From assembly GCA_945870025.1 (NCBI GenBank), contig CAMBQN010000006.1, positions 1 through 64,000 on the forward strand: 64,000 bases of DNA, written 5' to 3'. The notes under the pieces are model-generated. The model saw nothing but the letters and a program-made list of their open reading frames with translations. It ran no database searches and had not been told where the DNA came from. Shown here in pieces: positions 5,885-60,090 of the stretch; positions within the stretch are counted from its first letter, which is position 1; the number at the start of each line of letters is the position of its first letter. The position numbers and the translations under genes were made by a program. This DNA is from Akkermansia muciniphila. GTDB taxonomy: Bacteria > Verrucomicrobiota > Kiritimatiellia > RFP12 > JAAYNR01.

Positions 5885-8800
5885 TCACCAGGCAAACGCA
5901 TACGCCCCGGAGTCCAACGCCACGGATACCGTGCCTTCGACTACGCCCAGCAATTTGACACCCCGCGCGCCGGCCAGCGGGCGCCCCGCTTCGGTGACCG
6001 CGTCAGGCTTCTGTGTCAGCAGGAAGAGCGTGGCCGTGGTGTTCGGCGGGACGGCAACCTCCAGCGTCACCGCGCCGCCATCCTTCTTCCAACGGATCGA
6101 GATCGTGCCGTAGACCGAATCCGAGCTGGCCGCGAGGGAATCCATGTCTGGCGGAATGAACGGACGGAGCACCGCGTGCTGGAAGCCGGGTTGCGCCGGG
6201 TCATACTGGATACCGGCCAGGCCATTGATGAACCACTCGCCAATGCTCCCAAGCCCGGCGTGCGAGCGCGAGTGGGGGGGCTCTTCGTCCGGAGACATGA
6301 TCCAATCCTCCCAGATAGCGGCGTCACCGTTCTTGACCATCGCACCCCAACTCGGTCGGTCGGTCTGGTTCACCATCAGGTAGACCAGATCCGGCCGGTT
6401 GCGCGCCAGGAGATACCGCAGGAGATTGTGCATGCCGCCATCGCCGGATTGGGGATGCCCGTTGGCGACCACGCGGATGTGATTCTCCAAGGAGCGGAAC
6501 ACGGCGTCCTCTTCGTCCTTGGGCGGCACCTCCGCCAGCAACGGCTCCGCGAGGTACGTCATGTGGTCGATGCCATAGTTGGCGGCGGACTTCTTGTAGC
6601 AGTTGGCGTGAAACAGGCGTCGTTGCGCCTCGGCCTTGGCGCGATACCGGGCGGCCGACTTCCCGTCGCCAAGCACCTCCAGTCTCTTGCTCAAACGATC
6701 CAGGCTAACAATATACATGCAGTTAGTCTGAATCATCTTTGCCTCCGCACTTTGGCCGTATCTGTCGGCGCCTTCGACGCCCTCAGCCAACCAGTCGGCT
6801 ATGAAATCCAAATAAAGATAACACCAAGGGCCGTCGTTGTGGCTCGGGATCCCGGCCTTTTCGTCGAAATACTGCTCCATGCGCGTCAGGTACTTCTCCG
6901 ATGCGGCGAGAGACATCTCCAGGGCGCGCTTGTCGCCCGTGTAGAGGTAGATCTGCCAGGGCGTCTGGACAAAGACATAACCCCCGCCATTCTGAAAGGT
7001 CCACAGGGCACCCCCGCCATACCCGACCGGTGAACAGGTCGCGGAGAGGCCGTCCTGGCGCTGCGCGTCCACGCCATCGCGAACCATCTTTTCCAGGAAC
7101 ACAACCCCCTCCACAAAATGCTGCATCAGGAAGGGCGCATAATAGAGACCATAGCAGACATAGGCCCCCCGTTCGCGATCAGGACAATCCGAAATATAGC
7201 CGCCAAAGCTGTTGGCCAGAAAGGTGTTCATGCTCGCTTGATGAATGCGGTTGGCAAGGTCGTTGGAGCAGGAGAAGGAGAAGGCCGGCGTCAGGCCCGT
7301 CCCCAGGAGCATCGCCTTGATCTGCCCGGCGTCTGGCGCCTGGACCAACCCCTTGATCCGGACATAACGGAAGGTGTGGTAGTTGAACTTGTTGCAGAAG
7401 CGTACCCGTCCGCTGGCGTCCGGATCAACCAGGTCAACAAAATCTACCGTCACCATCCCAGCCGGTTTCGCATCGTAGGGCGCAAACGCCTGCATATAGT
7501 CCAGCGTGATGACCTGCCCGGGGGTGCCCTGCCCGGCAAACGTAAACCAACCCGTAATCATCTGCCCCATGTCCACCAGCCAGATCTGATTGGGTTCCGC
7601 CTGGACGGCCTTGGGCTGAACTTCTCTGATCACGATGTTCGGCGGGATCATCTGTGCCCGCAGCACCGGCGTCCCCGCAGGCGTATACACCTTCAACCGG
7701 TCCGGCAGATCCGCCTCCAGTGCCTCCCGCCGCGTGGGGGTACCGGCGGTCCTGACGCGGACCGGCTTCCACCCCATGTCGTCATGCGCCGCCCGGCACC
7801 AGTCGGGCAATTCCCGGCTGCCATCCCAGCGTTCGCCGCCGTAATCGCAAAACTTAAAACCCCCGATGCGCCGAATAGGACTAGGGCGCGTCTTCCAGGT
7901 TTCATCGCTGGTAATAGTCACGCGGCTGCCATCGCGACACTCGATCTCCAGTTGCACGATCCCCTGCGGCCGGGAGTCGGGGAAGAAGCGCCCGACGAAA
8001 CCATCTCCCAACCACAGCCCGAGGCAGTTCTGCCCCTCCTTGACAAGGGCGGAGACGTCATGCGTCACGTAGAACACATACAGGTCCATCACCGTGACCT
8101 GCGGCGCCAGCACGTCACGCCCGACCTTCTGTCCGTTGAGATACAACTCGTGATAGCCCACCGACGACACATAGACCGTGGCCCGCACGGGGGCCGCCGA
8201 CAAGTCGAAGGTCTTTCTGAAGAGCGGAGCGATCGGCTCCTGCTCCGGCGGCGCATCATCCTCAAGTATCCACTTGGCGGACCAATCATCCGGCCGCAGC
8301 AGCCCCATGGTCCACAAGGCGGGCGCCGACCAAGCGGAAACCTTGCCATCCTGATCCCAGGCGCGCACCTTCCAGTGGCACGCCAACCGTGATGTCAGCG
8401 GCTTGCCGGCATACTCGCATCGGTTCGCCTGCCCGGAGATCCTTCCGCTATCCCACAAGTCGCCCTGATCGTTGTCGAGCGCCTGCCGGCTGGAGGCCAC
8501 CAGCAGTTGGTAGGCCGTCTGCCGCAGGCCCCGGGCCGCCGGATCGCTGGATTCCAGCCGCCACGACAGACGCGGCTTGGTCTCGTCGATTCCCAGAGGG
8601 GCCTGCTGGTATTCGCAGCGCAACCCGGCGGGTGTGAGTGCCGCGCGGGCGACGCCCGCGCCGATCATGGCGCCAACCTCCTTCATGCGCTCGACAAAGA
8701 TCGGGGGCAACTGCCCGCTCATGTCCGGCGGCACATCCAGCAGATAGTTGGCGCGTTTCGAATTGAAATACGTCACCCGGCCCACAATCTCCGCCGAGGT

Positions 8801-25247: not shown

Positions 25248-27413
25248 CTAGACCTCCCTTCGCGCGGCTTTTCGTATGACCGCGGCAGTCTTCTCCACAT
25301 CCGGCAGACACATCAGTTCCAAACGCCGCGACACCCCGAGCGGAATGTCCAGCGCGTTGACAGATGCAGCCGGCGCGTCCAGGTCATCAAACCAACGCTG
25401 CTCGCAAGCCCGAATCAGCTTGGATCCAATGCCATTACAAGCCTGGGCCTCCTCCACGGTGACCAGCGCGCCGGTCTTGCGGAGTGAACGCCCGATGGCC
25501 TCGTAGTCCATACCGGCATCGTCCACGGTCCGCAAATCCAGCACCTCGGCCGACACCCCCTCTGCCGCCAGTTGCGCGGCCGCCCGTTCCGCCAACCGGA
25601 CTCCCCAGCCGTACGCCAGCACGGTCACATCCTTACCCTCACGCCGCACCGCCGCTTTCCCAATCTCCACGGTGTGGTCGGGCGGTCCATCCGGGATCAC
25701 ACCCTTCTCGCCGTAGAACCCGTGATGCTCGACCAGCAGGGTCGGACTCTTCAGTTTCATGGCCGCATTGAAGAGACCGATATAGTCGAACGGCGTAGTC
25801 GGCACGAGAATACGCCATCCAGGAAAGAGCGCGAAGAGCGCCACCGGGTCCATGCTGTGCTGGGCACCATAACCGAGGCCGGCCGCAATCCGGGTTCGCA
25901 CCACCAGCGGCACCGAAACATGCCCGCCGTAGATGTGACTGAGTTGGCCGATCTGGTTAAAAAGCTGATCCGCCGCCACCAGCCCGAAACTGGAAAACAT
26001 CAACTCCACGACCGGATGCATCCCGTTCATGGCCGCGCCACAGGCCAGTCCGCTGAACCCCGCCTCGGTGATCGGCGTATTCCGGACCCGCCCGGGGAAC
26101 CGGGCTGCCAGCCCTTTGGTCGCCCCATAGGCGCCCCCCCCCATGTTGGCGATTTCCTCACCCATGACGACCACTGTGTGATCCTGTTCCAACCAACGTC
26201 CGGTGACGGCCGCGATGGCATCTGGAAACTTGATCTCGCGCGTGCATTCGGTGGTCGCCGCCTCTGCGAATGGACCGATCTCAAGGGTGCGCTCATCACG
26301 CAAGCCGCAGACGGCGCTCTCCGCCGTGGGCCAGAGGCAGTCGCGAATCACGGTCGCGCCGGTGGTGGTCGTTTCCAGAATTGCACCGGCGGCCGCCTCA
26401 ACACAAGCGTGCGCCTGTTGCCGCAGTTGTTCAATCTGCGATTCGCCGACCCGGCGCTCGCGCAAGGACGCCTCGAAGCGCGTCAACGGATCCTTCCGCT
26501 GCCACTCGGCTTCCTCCTCCTTGCTCCGATAGCCGTACGCGCTGCCCGGAATACAGCCGGCGTGGTGATAGTGACGATAGGTCTCGATCTCCAGCACACA
26601 CGGCAGATTGGCAGGATCCGCCAAAATATGCCGCAGCGCGCTTTTCACGCTGACGGGATCCATGCCGTCGACACAAAACCCCGGCATGCCATACGCCGTC
26701 GCCACCTGACACAGATGCGGTGCCGAGCAGCCCTCGGTCCGCGAAGTGGCCACGGCATACTGGTTGTTCTCGATCACGTAGATGATCGGCGCCTTCCAAA
26801 GCGCGGCCAAGTTGCACGCCTCATGTACCGCACCCTGGTACACCGCGCCATCCCCGTAGAAACAGAGCGTGACGCACTCGCGCCCCAGCATCTTGTCGGC
26901 CCAGGCCACGCCGGTGGCCGGCGGAACACCTCCGCCTACAATCGCGTTGGTGCCGGCCACGCCGATGTCGGCATTGTAAAGATGCATCGACCCCCCGCGA
27001 CCGCCGCTGCATCCGTCGGCAAGGCCCATGATCTCCTTCATCAGGGTCAGAACGTGCGCCTGCATCGCGTCGGTGAGACCATCGCGCAAGGGGTCGTAGC
27101 CGCCCGGCGCACAGGCGCTAAGCGCCTTGGCCAGATACTGATGGTGCGCCCGGTGCGTGCCGCAAAACTTGTCCTCGCGCCGGACAGCCAGCGCCGCACC
27201 CACCGCCACGGCCTCCTGCCCCACGCTGGAGTGGACGGGACCGTTGACCAGATTCGCATCCTTGAGCGCCAGCAGTTTCATCTCGAACGCCCGGATCAGC
27301 GCCATCTGCTGATACATCCAGAGCAGTTCCAGGCGCGGCACCGCGGTCCAGTCCTCGTCGCCGGCCGATAACGTCAACAACGGCGCGGGTGTCCGCACTT
27401 TCGTCTGTTTCAT
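25248..27413 (-). CDS. 2-oxoacid dehydrogenase E1, alpha-beta fusion
   Basis: 721 aa; E1 alpha features (GRGGSMHLYNADIGVAGTNAIVG, CFYGDGAVYQGAVHEACNLAALWKAPIIYVIENNQYA) followed by E1 beta features (TEAGFSGLACGAAMNGMHPVVELMF, YGWGVRLAERAAAQLAAEG). Confidence 0.88.
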   Translation of the reverse strand: MKQTKVRTPAPLLTLSAGDEDWTAVPRLELLWMYQQMALIRAFEMKLLALKDANLVNGPVHSSVGQEAVAVGAALAVRREDKFCGTHRAHHQYLAKALSACAPGGYDPLRDGLTDAMQAHVLTLMKEIMGLADGCSGGRGGSMHLYNADIGVAGTNAIVGGGVPPATGVAWADKMLGRECVTLCFYGDGAVYQGAVHEACNLAALWKAPIIYVIENNQYAVATSRTEGCSAPHLCQVATAYGMPGFCVDGMDPVSVKSALRHILADPANLPCVLEIETYRHYHHAGCIPGSAYGYRSKEEEAEWQRKDPLTRFEASLRERRVGESQIEQLRQQAHACVEAAAGAILETTTTGATVIRDCLWPTAESAVCGLRDERTLEIGPFAEAATTECTREIKFPDAIAAVTGRWLEQDHTVVVMGEEIANMGGGAYGATKGLAARFPGRVRNTPITEAGFSGLACGAAMNGMHPVVELMFSSFGLVAADQLFNQIGQLSHIYGGHVSVPLVVRTRIAAGLGYGAQHSMDPVALFALFPGWRILVPTTPFDYIGLFNAAMKLKSPTLLVEHHGFYGEKGVIPDGPPDHTVEIGKAAVRREGKDVTVLAYGWGVRLAERAAAQLAAEGVSAEVLDLRTVDDAGMDYEAIGRSLRKTGALVTVEEAQACNGIGSKLIRACEQRWFDDLDAPAASVNALDIPLGVSRRLELMCLPDVEKTAAVIRKAARREV

Positions 27414-39077: not shown

Positions 39078-41084
39078 TTATTCCTCCATCAGCTCCCGAA
39101 CGGCCCGCGCAATTCCTTCCACGTCCGGCACCAAAACCTTCTCCAGCGGCGGGCTGTACGGCACCGGTGCAAAGGCGCCATGCAGGCGCTTCACGGGCGC
39201 GTCCAGATCGTTGAAGCCATCGGCGGCGGCGGCGGCGGCAATTTCGCTGGCCACGCTGTAGGGCGCAAAATCCTCGTCCACGATCAGCAGCCGCCCGGTC
39301 TTGCGCACGGACGCCAGGATCGTGGCCGTGTCCAGCGGTGCCAACGTGCGCGGATCAATCAGTTCCACCTCGATCCCTTCGGCCGCCAGCGCCTCGCACG
39401 CCTTCTTCGCCTGATGCACCATCATCGCCAGCGCCACCACCGTCACATCCCGCCCCTCGCGCACAATTGACGCCTTGCCGAACTCAATCTCGTAGTCGCC
39501 CTCCGGCACGGGACACTTGAAGCCGATCAGTTCGCGGTGTTCGAGGAAGAGAACCGGATCGCGGCCGCGCAGGGCGCGCAGGAACAGCCCCTTGGCATCA
39601 TATGCCGTGGACGGCATCGCCACCTTCAAGCCGGGGAAATGCGCGAACATCGAGCCGTAATTGCCCGAGTGATGTGTCGCCGCGCAATGCCCTACGCCGA
39701 TACATCCGCGCAGGATCACCGGCATGTTCAGCCGGCCGTCGCTCATGTAGCGCATCTTGGCGATCTGGTTGATGATCTCACCGACACCGTCGAGGACAAA
39801 GTCGGCAAACATGAAATCAATCACCGGCCGCGCGCCAGCCATGGCGGCGCCGCAGGCCAGGCCCACAAAACCGCGCTCGCAAATCGGCGTGTCACACAGC
39901 CTCACCGGACCGTATTTTTCGAAAAGCCCGGTGGTCGTGGCAAAGTTGCCGCCGCGCGCGCCGATCCCCTCGCCCATCACGAAGATGGAAGGTGCGCGAT
40001 CCATCTCGCCGGACAGCGCCTCGAGCGTGGCGCGGGTGAAATTGATCTCCCTCGTTCCGGCCGGCAATTCCGGCGCGGCCGACGGCGGGTTCTCGTCCAG
40101 AACATGCAACACGGCGGTGACCGGCTCGGGCCAGGGATCGGCCTCGGCCTGCTTGAGCGCGGCCGCCGCAACCTCGGCGCGCTCTTTCTCGATGACCGCG
40201 AGTTCTTCCTCCGTGACCGCGCCGTCCGCGATCAGGCGCTTGCGCAGAGCCTGGATCGGACACTTGGCTTTCCACGCTTCCACGTCCTCCCGCGTGCGGT
40301 AGGTGTAGTCGCCCATCCCTTCGGCATGCGGACGCGTCCGGTAGGTCTTGCACTCGATCAGCGTGGGACCTTCGCCGGCCCGCGCGCGGCGCACGGCCTC
40401 CTCCGCCACCGCGGCCACCGCCACCGCGTCATTTCCATCCACGGCCACGCCGGGGATGTTGTAGGCAGCCGCCCGCTGTGCAATCTCCGGGTTACCGCCG
40501 GAGTAGCGAAGCGGGATCTCGGTTGCGAACTGGTTGTTCTCGCAGACGAACAGCACCGGCAGCTTCCAGATGGCGGCCATGTTCAGCCCTTCGTGGAATG
40601 CGCCGTTGTTGGAGGCGCCGTCGCCGAAGAAGGCGACGGACACCCGGCCGTCCTTCGCCAGCTTGGCCGCGTAGCCCGCGCCGGTGGCCTGAAGGATGCA
40701 CGGACCCACGATGCCGGTGGTGCCCATGAGGCCAATCTCCGGGGCAAAGAGGTGCATGCTCCCGCCACGCCCGCTGGAGCACCCCGTGGCGCGGCCAAGC
40801 AGTTCGGCAATCAGCGCGCGCGGCTCCAGCCCCTTGGCCAACGCATGACCATGGCCTCGATGCGTGCTGAAGACCGGGTCCTGTGGCCGCAGATGCGCGC
40901 AGACGCCAGCCGCAATCGCCTCCTCTCCGATGTAGGTATGGCAGGCGCCATGAATGAGCCCGCGCTGATGCGCGCGGAGCAGTTGTTCCTCGGTCAGCCG
41001 GATCGTCAGCATCGTGCGGTAGAGGTACAGAAGTCCCTCACGGTTCTCGCTCGATGCGTGCTTTGTCGTCTTCTTCGTTGCCAT
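39078..41084 (-). CDS. 2-oxoacid dehydrogenase E1, alpha-beta fusion (second copy)
   Basis: 668 aa; GRGGSMHLFAPEIGLMGTTGIVG, AFFGDGASNNGAFHEGLNMAAIWKLPVLFVCENNQFATEI, then beta part ICERGFVGLACGAAMAGARPVIDFMFADF. Confidence 0.92.
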   Translation of the reverse strand: MATKKTTKHASSENREGLLYLYRTMLTIRLTEEQLLRAHQRGLIHGACHTYIGEEAIAAGVCAHLRPQDPVFSTHRGHGHALAKGLEPRALIAELLGRATGCSSGRGGSMHLFAPEIGLMGTTGIVGPCILQATGAGYAAKLAKDGRVSVAFFGDGASNNGAFHEGLNMAAIWKLPVLFVCENNQFATEIPLRYSGGNPEIAQRAAAYNIPGVAVDGNDAVAVAAVAEEAVRRARAGEGPTLIECKTYRTRPHAEGMGDYTYRTREDVEAWKAKCPIQALRKRLIADGAVTEEELAVIEKERAEVAAAALKQAEADPWPEPVTAVLHVLDENPPSAAPELPAGTREINFTRATLEALSGEMDRAPSIFVMGEGIGARGGNFATTTGLFEKYGPVRLCDTPICERGFVGLACGAAMAGARPVIDFMFADFVLDGVGEIINQIAKMRYMSDGRLNMPVILRGCIGVGHCAATHHSGNYGSMFAHFPGLKVAMPSTAYDAKGLFLRALRGRDPVLFLEHRELIGFKCPVPEGDYEIEFGKASIVREGRDVTVVALAMMVHQAKKACEALAAEGIEVELIDPRTLAPLDTATILASVRKTGRLLIVDEDFAPYSVASEIAAAAAADGFNDLDAPVKRLHGAFAPVPYSPPLEKVLVPDVEGIARAVRELMEE

Positions 41085-41096
41085 GTTGTCTCCCCC

Positions 41097-41389
41097 GTTC
41101 AGGTTTCAGGTGTCCGGTGTCAGAAAACACTCCCCATCTTCATCGTGATCCTTATCTTGGAGCCGCTTGCAAAACCCTGTTTTGCAAGCGGAGTGTTCAG
41201 GTGTCAGGTTTCGGGTATCAGGATGAACCACACGATGTTGCATCTTCCTGAAACCTGAACACTGAAACCTGAAACCGGCGCTTGCAGGGGTTCTGCAAGC
41301 GCCTCCTTGATCTTGATTCGACCGACGCCGGATCAAGCCAACGATCAAGATCATTCCTTTCCTGAAACCTGACACATGAAACCCGAAAC
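41097..41389. repeat. Large composite heptamer-word and hairpin element
   Basis: Heptamer clusters at 41097-41123 and 41193-41221 (minus reading) and 41248-41275 and 41362-41389 (plus reading). Perfect hairpins at 41163-41191 (13 bp), 41277-41303 (11 bp) and 41308-41353 (10 bp). Confidence 0.9.
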
Positions 41390-41398
41390 CTCTATTCC

Positions 41399-42181
41399 CT
41401 AAAAGTCTCTCGAATACCCCGCGGTCCAGCCGCCATCCACGGTCATGATCGAGCCGGTGACATAGTCGTTCTCCGGCGCCACGAGGAACAGCGCGGCATT
41501 GGCGATATCCTTGCACGTGCCGAAGCGATGGAGCGGAATGTGCGACAACATCGCATCCATCCGGGCCTTCATAATCGGATCCTTGCCGGTAAAGAGACCC
41601 TGGGGGCCCTCGATCGGAATCGAGCCGGGCGCGATGGCGTTGACCAGCACGCCGCGCTCGGCAAACTCCATGGCCATGGCCTTGGTAAGATTCACCACAC
41701 CCGCCTTGGCCGCCACGAAGGCGCACTGCAACCGCGCCGGCACCAGACCGAAGACCGACGCAATGTTCACGATCCGTCCGCCACCGCGTTCGAACAGCGC
41801 CGGCACCACCGCCTTGGTCACGCGATAGCAACCGGTCAGATCCGTGTTCACGATCCAGTCCCATTCTTCCTGGGGAAACTGCTCCAGCGTGACGCGGTGC
41901 TTCATCGTATTCACGCCGGCATTGTTGATGAGGATGTCAATGCCGCCGAACGTTTCGCGCATCCAGCGCACACCGGCCTCGATGTCGTCCTGGCTCGTCA
42001 CGTCCAGACGCCGCCCGGCGCAGCCTGGCTTGGCTGCGGCGGCCTGCTGCGCGCCTTCGGCGAGAATATCCGTGTACCCCACCTTTGCGCCGTTATCGGC
42101 CAACGTGTCGGCAATGGCTTTGCCAATCCCGCGCGCCGCACCGGTCACCAGAGCCACCTTGCCGTTCAGGTCCACTTTCAT
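41399..42181 (-). CDS. Short-chain dehydrogenase/reductase (SDR)
   Basis: Start MKVDLNGKVALVTGAARGIGKAIADTLADNGAKVGYTD at 42181; NNAGVN; IVNIASVFG; C-terminal VTGSIMTVDGGWTAGY. Confidence 0.92.
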   Translation of the reverse strand: MKVDLNGKVALVTGAARGIGKAIADTLADNGAKVGYTDILAEGAQQAAAAKPGCAGRRLDVTSQDDIEAGVRWMRETFGGIDILINNAGVNTMKHRVTLEQFPQEEWDWIVNTDLTGCYRVTKAVVPALFERGGGRIVNIASVFGLVPARLQCAFVAAKAGVVNLTKAMAMEFAERGVLVNAIAPGSIPIEGPQGLFTGKDPIMKARMDAMLSHIPLHRFGTCKDIANAALFLVAPENDYVTGSIMTVDGGWTAGYSRDF

Positions 42182-42194
42182 GATACGATCTCCT

Positions 42195-42247
42195 GTTTGC
42201 AGGTTCCAGGAAAAACAAGGAATACGTTCCTCCCTGAAACCTGAAAC
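42195..42247. repeat. Small heptamer-word element in the divergent SDR/AraC intergenic region
   Basis: gtttgcag gttccag (42195-42209) opposed to ctgaaac ctgaaac (42234-42247). Confidence 0.65.
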
Positions 42248-42327
42248 CTCTTGTTGTCGGCTAGTGTACCAAGCCACTATTTATCTGTCTTGACCTTATA
42301 TGGACATTTGTTTTACCATTTTGTGCC

Positions 42328-47106: not shown

Positions 47107-47120
47107 GATCTCTCCTCGCA

Positions 47121-47160
47121 CTGACACCTGAACACTAAACACTAAACACTGAACACTGAT
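47121..47160 (+). repeat. Heptamer-word array
   Basis: CTGACAC CTGAACA CTAAACA CTAAACA CTGAACA CTGAT, exact 7-bp period, filling the gap between two genes. Confidence 0.88.
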
Positions 47161-59247: not shown

Positions 59248-60090
59248 CTATTCTGAATACTGAATACTGGCTTCTGAATACTGCGTTTGCAAAACCGACG
59301 AAGGAGGTTTTGGAAACGACTCCACCGTCAGCCCCTCGCCGGGTCGCACCAGCATGGCCTTCACGTCGGGGCACATCGTTGCACACGCATGGATGAAGCC
59401 GGCTGGATCGCCCCCGCCCTGCTCGGCCAGCGTCCAGAAATGACACGGAATCGCGATGCGGGGCTTCGCCTCGGATACCAGCCGGGCCGCGTCCACGTGG
59501 TTCATGTTGCCGAACACGCCGTTGATCGCCGGCAGCACCACGTCGGGGTTCAAGTCGTAAAGCGGCTTGAACAGGACCGGCCGCCACGACGTGTCGCCTG
59601 TGGCCATCACGCGGACGCCGCCGAAATCGAGAACCAGCGCCACGGCGCTCGGCGCCAAGTCGCCGTGATCGGCCGGCACGGTGTGCACCACGAGATCCCC
59701 CAGATCGTGGCGGCGGTTCGATTCCAGCAGGACGCGCCGCGCCGCAGGCACGCCAGCGGCTGCCAACCCGGCCAGGCAACCGGCGGGAGCGGCAAATCGA
59801 CAGGCGGGATTGTTTCGCGCGATCACGGGAATGGCGTCCGGATCGAGATGATCCGTGTGCTCGTGCGTCAGCACCACCCAGTCCGCCTCGACCTCCTCCG
59901 GACGCAGCGCCGGAAGCGACAGGCGTTTGAACCCGTGCAGCCGCTCGCACGCATCGGACAGGTACGGATCCAGAAAGATCCGCCGCCCCGCCGGCGTCCG
60001 AAAGGCAAACCCCGCCTGCCCCAGCCAGTACAGCCGCACCCCGCCGACGGGAACATCCGCCTGCCTAAAATCATCGGTCCATTCGCTCAT
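59248..60090 (-). CDS. MBL-fold metallohydrolase (UlaG-like)
   Basis: 280 aa; YWLGQAGFAFRTPAGRRIFLDPYLSDACE, VLTHEHTDHLDPDAI, VMATGDTSW, AIPCHFW. Confidence 0.85.
   Translation of the reverse strand: MSEWTDDFRQADVPVGGVRLYWLGQAGFAFRTPAGRRIFLDPYLSDACERLHGFKRLSLPALRPEEVEADWVVLTHEHTDHLDPDAIPVIARNNPACRFAAPAGCLAGLAAAGVPAARRVLLESNRRHDLGDLVVHTVPADHGDLAPSAVALVLDFGGVRVMATGDTSWRPVLFKPLYDLNPDVVLPAINGVFGNMNHVDAARLVSEAKPRIAIPCHFWTLAEQGGGDPAGFIHACATMCPDVKAMLVRPGEGLTVESFPKPPSSVLQTQYSEASIQYSE
59253..59317. repeat. Heptamer-word array plus hairpin, coding for the MBL protein C-terminus
   Basis: CTGAATA CTGAATA CTGGCTT CTGAATA CTGCG (59253-59285); gtttgcaaaacc (59285-59296) / ggttttggaaac (59306-59317), 11/12 pairing. 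Confidence 0.85.

Follow-up and report, generated by a model that had tools for sequence, protein, structure and literature searches.

The 314-bp gap at positions 41085-41398 of the window (the whole 64,000-nucleotide stretch of DNA analyzed) raises the question of what kind of feature fills the space between two genes with ordered heptamers and hairpins. Both flanking genes are on the minus strand. The upstream gene (41399-42277) encodes a short-chain dehydrogenase/reductase (SDR; adh_short_C2, adh_short), and the downstream gene (39078-41084) encodes a 2-oxoacid dehydrogenase E1 protein with fused alpha and beta parts (E1_dh, Transket_pyr, Transketolase_C). An E2 gene is located further along from E1 and SDR. 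A second E1-type dehydrogenase homologue, 38% identical to this E1, is found at 25269-27047.

A previous reading, made from the letters of the window only, described the gap as heptamer words in opposed orientations around three perfect stems, and all of these motifs were located. The outer heptamer arrays occupy 41096-41123 (minus strand, ending beside the E1 ribosome-binding site) and 41362-41389 (plus strand, adjoining the SDR stop codon). Between them are two inner arrays, at 41201-41221 (minus strand; CTGATAC, CCGAAAC, CTGACAC) and 41248-41275 (plus strand; CTGAAAC, CTGAACA, CTGAAAC, CTGAAAC). The left palindrome, CCGCTTGCAAAAC-CCT-GTTTTGCAAGCGG, spans 41163-41191 and has 13-bp arms (41163-41175 and 41179-41191), and the right palindrome, GGCGCTTGCAG/CTGCAAGCGCC, spans 41277-41303 and has 11-bp arms (41277-41287 and 41293-41303). 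The third inverted repeat, TGATCTTGAT..ATCAAGATCA, extends from 41308 to 41353 with 10-bp arms (41308-41317 and 41344-41353). Runs of at least two CTGAAAC-like heptamers occur four times in the window and never in 10 Markov-shuffled sequences of 64 kb, which answers the concern that shuffled sequence might yield such runs equally well.

The same reading proposed that the stretch fits no standard feature type. This is correct for CRISPR arrays, because repeat finders report only 7-bp words and inverted pairs, and identical 23-50-nucleotide repeats with unique spacers are absent. It is also correct for intrinsic terminators (a GC-rich stem followed by a T-run), of which none was found in 40900-41500. 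However, the proposal fails for MITEs, whose hallmarks are present.

A 146-bp repeated unit

The source of this DNA is a draft genome of 2.76 Mb in 59 contigs (81% complete), in which two of the hairpins recur together approximately 115 bp apart. The hairpin pattern is found at 99 genome sites and at none in the control. An ordered, recurrent, non-coding composite, as had been proposed, is therefore present, and the possibility that it is unique in the genome can be set aside. Comparison by BLAST with approximately 0.8 Mb of sequence places the repeated unit in the center of the 314 bp, and genome searches fix it at 146 bp (type A; 41160-41305, plus strand). The gap is thus not the single 314-bp element that was first envisaged; the outer heptamers and the third stem represent a pre-existing site, and the TGATCTTGAT stem is missing from the flanks of other copies of the element.

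The 146-bp core comprises a terminal inverted repeat (TIR), the left palindrome, the inverted pair of inner heptamer arrays, the right palindrome, and a second TIR. The TIRs conform to GAG(C/G)CGCTTGCA / TGCAAGCGCCTC, and each end is itself palindromic, the left palindrome consisting of the TIR and an inverted partial copy of it. The element begins with GAGCCGCTTGCA (41160-41171, plus strand) and its last bases are TGCAAGCGCCTC, with the right TIR, GAGGCGCTTGCA, on the minus strand (41294-41305). Both ends are common to the copies, and the inner plus-strand array recurs word for word in most of them.

At least 40 copies of the element are present in the genome, and five, including that of the window, are identical at 100%; the count is a lower bound, with 40 of 118 candidates scored. 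Several copies sit at the ends of contigs, where a repeat that interrupts assembly is expected to lie. Overlap with called genes was seen for none of 39 copies, in sequence that a home-made gene caller finds to be 85.5% coding. Relative to co-directional genes, 8 copies are in the same orientation and 7 in the opposite one, which reveals no bias. This intergenic placement and the lack of orientation bias argue against a directional signal, and fit insertions that are tolerated between genes.

Copy lengths of 132, 139, 146, 153, and 167 bp differ mainly by 7-bp steps. The change is often confined to one arm, and the arms vary independently of each other. Slippage of tandem repeats would be expected to produce such variation, and a tightly constrained RNA would not. 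Both partners of one left-stem pair are changed in 4 of 31 copies, which could be explained by a dyad in the DNA as well as by a stem in RNA.

Insertion and a partner transposase

Exact direct repeats of at least 4 bp abut 24 of the 34 full copies for which both flanks are available (20 of 4 bp and 4 of 5 bp); when the flank pairs were shuffled 5000 times, the number averaged 0.89 and never exceeded 6. These target-site duplications (TSDs), scored on BLAST-defined copies and with a modal length of 4 bp, are found in 29 of 40 copies in a wider sample. Elements that have the same ends and other payloads exhibit a TSD in 25 of 51 cases (shuffled mean 0.79, maximum 5). In the window, the TSD is an exact CTTG that abuts the left end at 41156-41159 and the right end at 41306-41309. 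Because the outer arrays and the TGATCTTGAT stem lie outside these duplications, they are older than the insertion. Without the element and one CTTG, the site continues to fold into a long stem built from the outer arrays (-44.7 kcal/mol, z = -4.0). A natural empty site was not found at the E1-SDR junction, as relatives with E1 have no adjacent SDR.

The core is best explained as a MITE, that is, a non-autonomous DNA transposon. This assignment follows from TIRs, 4-bp TSDs, high copy number, absence of coding capacity, and ends shared with a transposase-encoding insertion sequence (IS), all of which can be read from the genomes themselves. We place the probability of this explanation, including the partner IS and the nesting of the element in an older site, at roughly 0.9.

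The partner IS came to light when GTDB genomes were scanned with the 17-base end GAGGCKCTTGCAAAACC. A Hydrogenedentes contig among the sources (L238) contains a complete 1.5-kb IS bounded by such ends, whose protein of 375 amino acids has DUF772 and DDE_Tnp_1 domains (Pfam). Its best NCBIfam scores are 96.2 bits for IS1182 and 63.9 bits for IS5_4, far below the respective equivalog cut-offs of 270 and 140. The transposase apparently falls between IS1182 and IS5 as a separate subgroup, and is filed here in neither. No solved structure resembles it by sequence.

The same TIR bounds related IS copies in other genomes. The congener G001 has an intact full-length homologue on contig C20 that is 77% identical to the L238 transposase, with the TIR at both ends, and further homologues with this TIR are found in G012 (C420; 78%) and G378 (C359; 72% identical to that of G001). 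Transposase relatives at approximately 50% identity have matching diverged TIRs (GAGGTAATTGCAAAACC, GAGGTTCTTGCGAAACC, GAGGTAATTTCAAAA), and these altered ends tie the transposase clade to the end type. After each IS end, part of that end recurs in inverted orientation (GGTTTTGTAAG), which is the doubled arrangement seen in the end hairpins of the MITE. Judged by this shared layout, the end hairpins are putative paired transposase sites.

The source genome keeps just decayed pieces of the IS, one with stop codons on contig C26 and one end on C42, and a copy of the 146-bp element is inserted within the C42 remnant. This genome bin, at 81% completeness, yielded no intact transposase. Nor was the transposase detected in the bins G200 (63 ends) and G029 (14 ends), although these are drafts in which absence is weak evidence; G461, of the same genus as G200, has an 88% copy. 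No TSD was found at the close autonomous IS copies that have both ends (L238, G001, and G012). The sole autonomous copy with one is a distant IS in G544, flanked by a 4-bp GAGA.

Some other ends were considered as those of further autonomous IS copies and rejected. Two ends that are 1584 bp apart on contig C41 of G001 are separate MITE ends around ordinary genes. Ends at the terminus of G000 C3 and on C23 of G001 are part of a different inverted-repeat element, GGGCGCATGGCAGTTCTGATGAGG..CCTCATCAGAACTGCCATGCGCCC with TCGTAATC runs, in which no gene was seen; it occupies G000 C3 from 138602 to the contig end, and approximately 6100-6524 of the G001 contig (L153).

The element would be mobilized in trans. 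A DDE transposase from a related IS of 1.5-1.6 kb with the same TIRs would bind the doubled palindromic end sites, excise or copy the element, and insert it at a staggered cut, which would produce the 4-bp TSD. The internal heptamer arrays would be tandem-repeat cargo that grows and shrinks by slippage. In the window, the element inserted, with duplication of CTTG, between genes at a site where two older heptamer arrays in inverted orientation were already present, and the nested appearance of the gap results from that insertion. An odd intergenic pattern is explained in this way as a transposon insertion, with a probable transposase assigned.

Heptamer arrays and competing explanations

CTGA at a period of 7 forms 54 runs in 1.15 Mb of the genome, the highest number among the 256 tetramers and tied only with its reverse complement. 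At periods of 5, 6, 8, 9, 10, and 11, the runs number 0, 1, 12, 0, 0, and 0. A second genome-wide period-7 signal, with the core AACC/CCAA, is enriched beside CTGA. Heptamer arrays without TIRs occur in the source genome and also in G040 and G050. The full end sequence was not found in either of the latter; G050 is outside one of the samples scanned for the end and has one short 12-base match. Within the window, arrays without transposon ends are located at 47119-47159 (CACTGAACACTAAACACTGAAC) and at 42233-42248 (CCTGAAACCTGAAACC), the second just upstream of the SDR gene.

Such arrays might have a function of their own, for example as sites at which a protein binds RNA or DNA, with the MITE merely spreading them. 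This idea concerns the cargo and is compatible with the MITE explanation. A protein-binding role has been proposed for the TAACTGA repeats of Beggiatoaceae (PMC4679880). The occurrence of arrays that lack TIRs and the outer array that terminates beside the E1 ribosome-binding site would both suit independent sites. Arrays within 200 bp of each other are in the fold-back orientation in 92 of 92 cases and never in the opposite one, a regularity that also agrees with the idea, although a single element accounts for the majority of these cases, which are therefore not independent. However, the slippage-like variation in array length suggests that the heptamers are passenger repeats. Moreover, lone arrays show no evident pattern of placement around genes (10 of 22 are in predicted ORFs), and there is no candidate binding protein. 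A role of this kind is thus unlikely. There is a comparably slim chance that CTGAnnn arrays constitute a distinct type of element in unrelated bacteria, generated or kept up by some further process and functional when paired head to head (as an RNA hairpin that is processed or bound by a protein, for example), and that the transposon ends are a cassette that acquires such and other payloads and spreads them between lineages.

A conserved cis-regulatory RNA selected at the SDR-E1 junction, such as an attenuator, a terminator, or a hairpin processed by RNase, is very improbable. The minus-strand core has a very stable fold (z = -8.9), the gap is operon-like and adjoins the E1 ribosome-binding site, and the left stem contains the covarying pair. 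However, the stability of the fold follows from the inverted repeats. The element is dispersed with TSDs at unrelated loci, has no orientation preference, and has arms whose lengths vary independently, all of which argue against selection at this junction. A terminator-like T-run or a promoter was not found, and no Rfam match reaches its gathering score. A match to a plant microRNA family, at 37.8 bits against a gathering score of 100, was rejected. As an inserted MITE, the element may still influence E1 expression.

Least credible is a REP/REPIN-type element moved by a Y1 (HUH) tyrosine transposase (RAYT) acting on hairpins: the element ends are hairpins and the genome has three Y1 transposase genes, one of them with a lone TIR-like end approximately 180 bp upstream of its start, but TSDs accompany 24 of 34 copies whereas Y1 enzymes are not known to make target duplications, the TIR belongs to an IS with a DDE transposase, and the repeats on either side of the Y1 genes are different ones, with 0 of 3 genes flanked by element ends as a unit. 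One Y1 gene (G000 C1:135988-136720; L137) is flanked by its own hairpin repeats, CCCCAACGGGGCA and GTTGCCGCAACGCGGC, and has a lone GAGGCGCTTGCAAAACC end upstream.

Payload variety and related elements

The MITE ends also bound other interiors, including other heptamers, GC-rich inverted repeats, and bare palindromes of 30-57 bp. The named sources of these elements are mostly Kiritimatiellae, Lentisphaerae, Verrucomicrobia, and unassigned PVC drafts. Elements of approximately 100-120 bp from Lentisphaerae, Kiritimatiellae, and G001 (L178, L184, L200, L219, L163) have 4-5-bp TSDs and contain a GC-rich inverted repeat, CACGGGCATCTTGCCCGTG..CATGGGCGGGACGCCCATG or GTGCAGGCGTCCCGCCTGCA. A 450-bp element with these ends in a member of the Kiritimatiellae (L205:387-836) is flanked by the 6-bp repeat AACCAT. 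G008, from another family of the same order, has an element copy that is 94.5% identical over 146 bp, and its E1 homologues are approximately 39-48% identical to the window E1. Horizontal spread is the simplest reading of this element identity.

One end type bounds unrelated payloads in PVC-group and other drafts, and a large part of the unexplained repeats between genes in these drafts could accordingly be assigned to a single MITE superfamily. Inverted heptamer pairs inside a mobile element also represent a concrete route by which short tandem repeats could spread through genomes.

The nearest precedents are the BrickBuilt and PgRS/MITE464 elements of Porphyromonas gingivalis, which are intergenic MITEs with IS5-family ends (GAGACCTTTGCA / GAGACTGTTGCA) and internal tandem repeats (PMC4596501). 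In those elements, repeat units of 23 or 41 nucleotides run in one direction, whereas the 7-nucleotide arrays described here form two inverted blocks. Doubled palindromic ends, regular 4-bp TSDs, and one end type that bounds many payloads in several bacterial groups are further differences. The partner IS resembles IS5-family members (ISPg1, ISNme1) and IS1182 in its DUF772 and DDE_Tnp_1 domains, and its ends, GAG..TTGCAAAA, are like those of the IS5 family, for which the TIR form GAGnCnnTTGCAAAA is tabulated (PMC4596501, Table 2). REP, BIME, and REPIN elements are likewise short intergenic palindromes in many copies and in inverted pairs, but here there are TSDs and DDE-type ends, and a link to a RAYT gene is absent. 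In the literature searched, which lay outside subscription journals and ISfinder, work on such repeats does not include these sequences, and the few exact matches to the end sequences are in unrelated papers. Provisionally, the kind of element is already known, and its new features are inverted blocks of 7-nucleotide words, doubled ends, TSDs that are regularly 4 bp long, and the range of payloads.

The heptamer STRRs of cyanobacteria and the TAACTGA repeats of Beggiatoaceae (PMC4679880) are also short intergenic arrays of 7-nucleotide words, and TAACTGA contains CTGA. However, the words described here are CTGAAAC and variants such as CTGAACA and CTGAATT, not TAACTGA in direct repeats upstream of start codons, and they occur in other lineages as inverted pairs inside a transposable element. 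The TAACTGA arrays are not described as transposon cargo (PMC4679880). A 57-bp palindromic element with the same ends and the TSD ATTA lies directly beside TAACTGA-type repeats in Candidatus Parabeggiatoa (L235:7115-7171), a possible link between the two repeat types. Heptamers of yet another kind, CTGAATA, accompany the decayed end of a related type B element (TATTCTGAATACTGAATACTGGCTTCTGAATACTGCGTTTGCAAAACC...) at 59250-59325 of the window.
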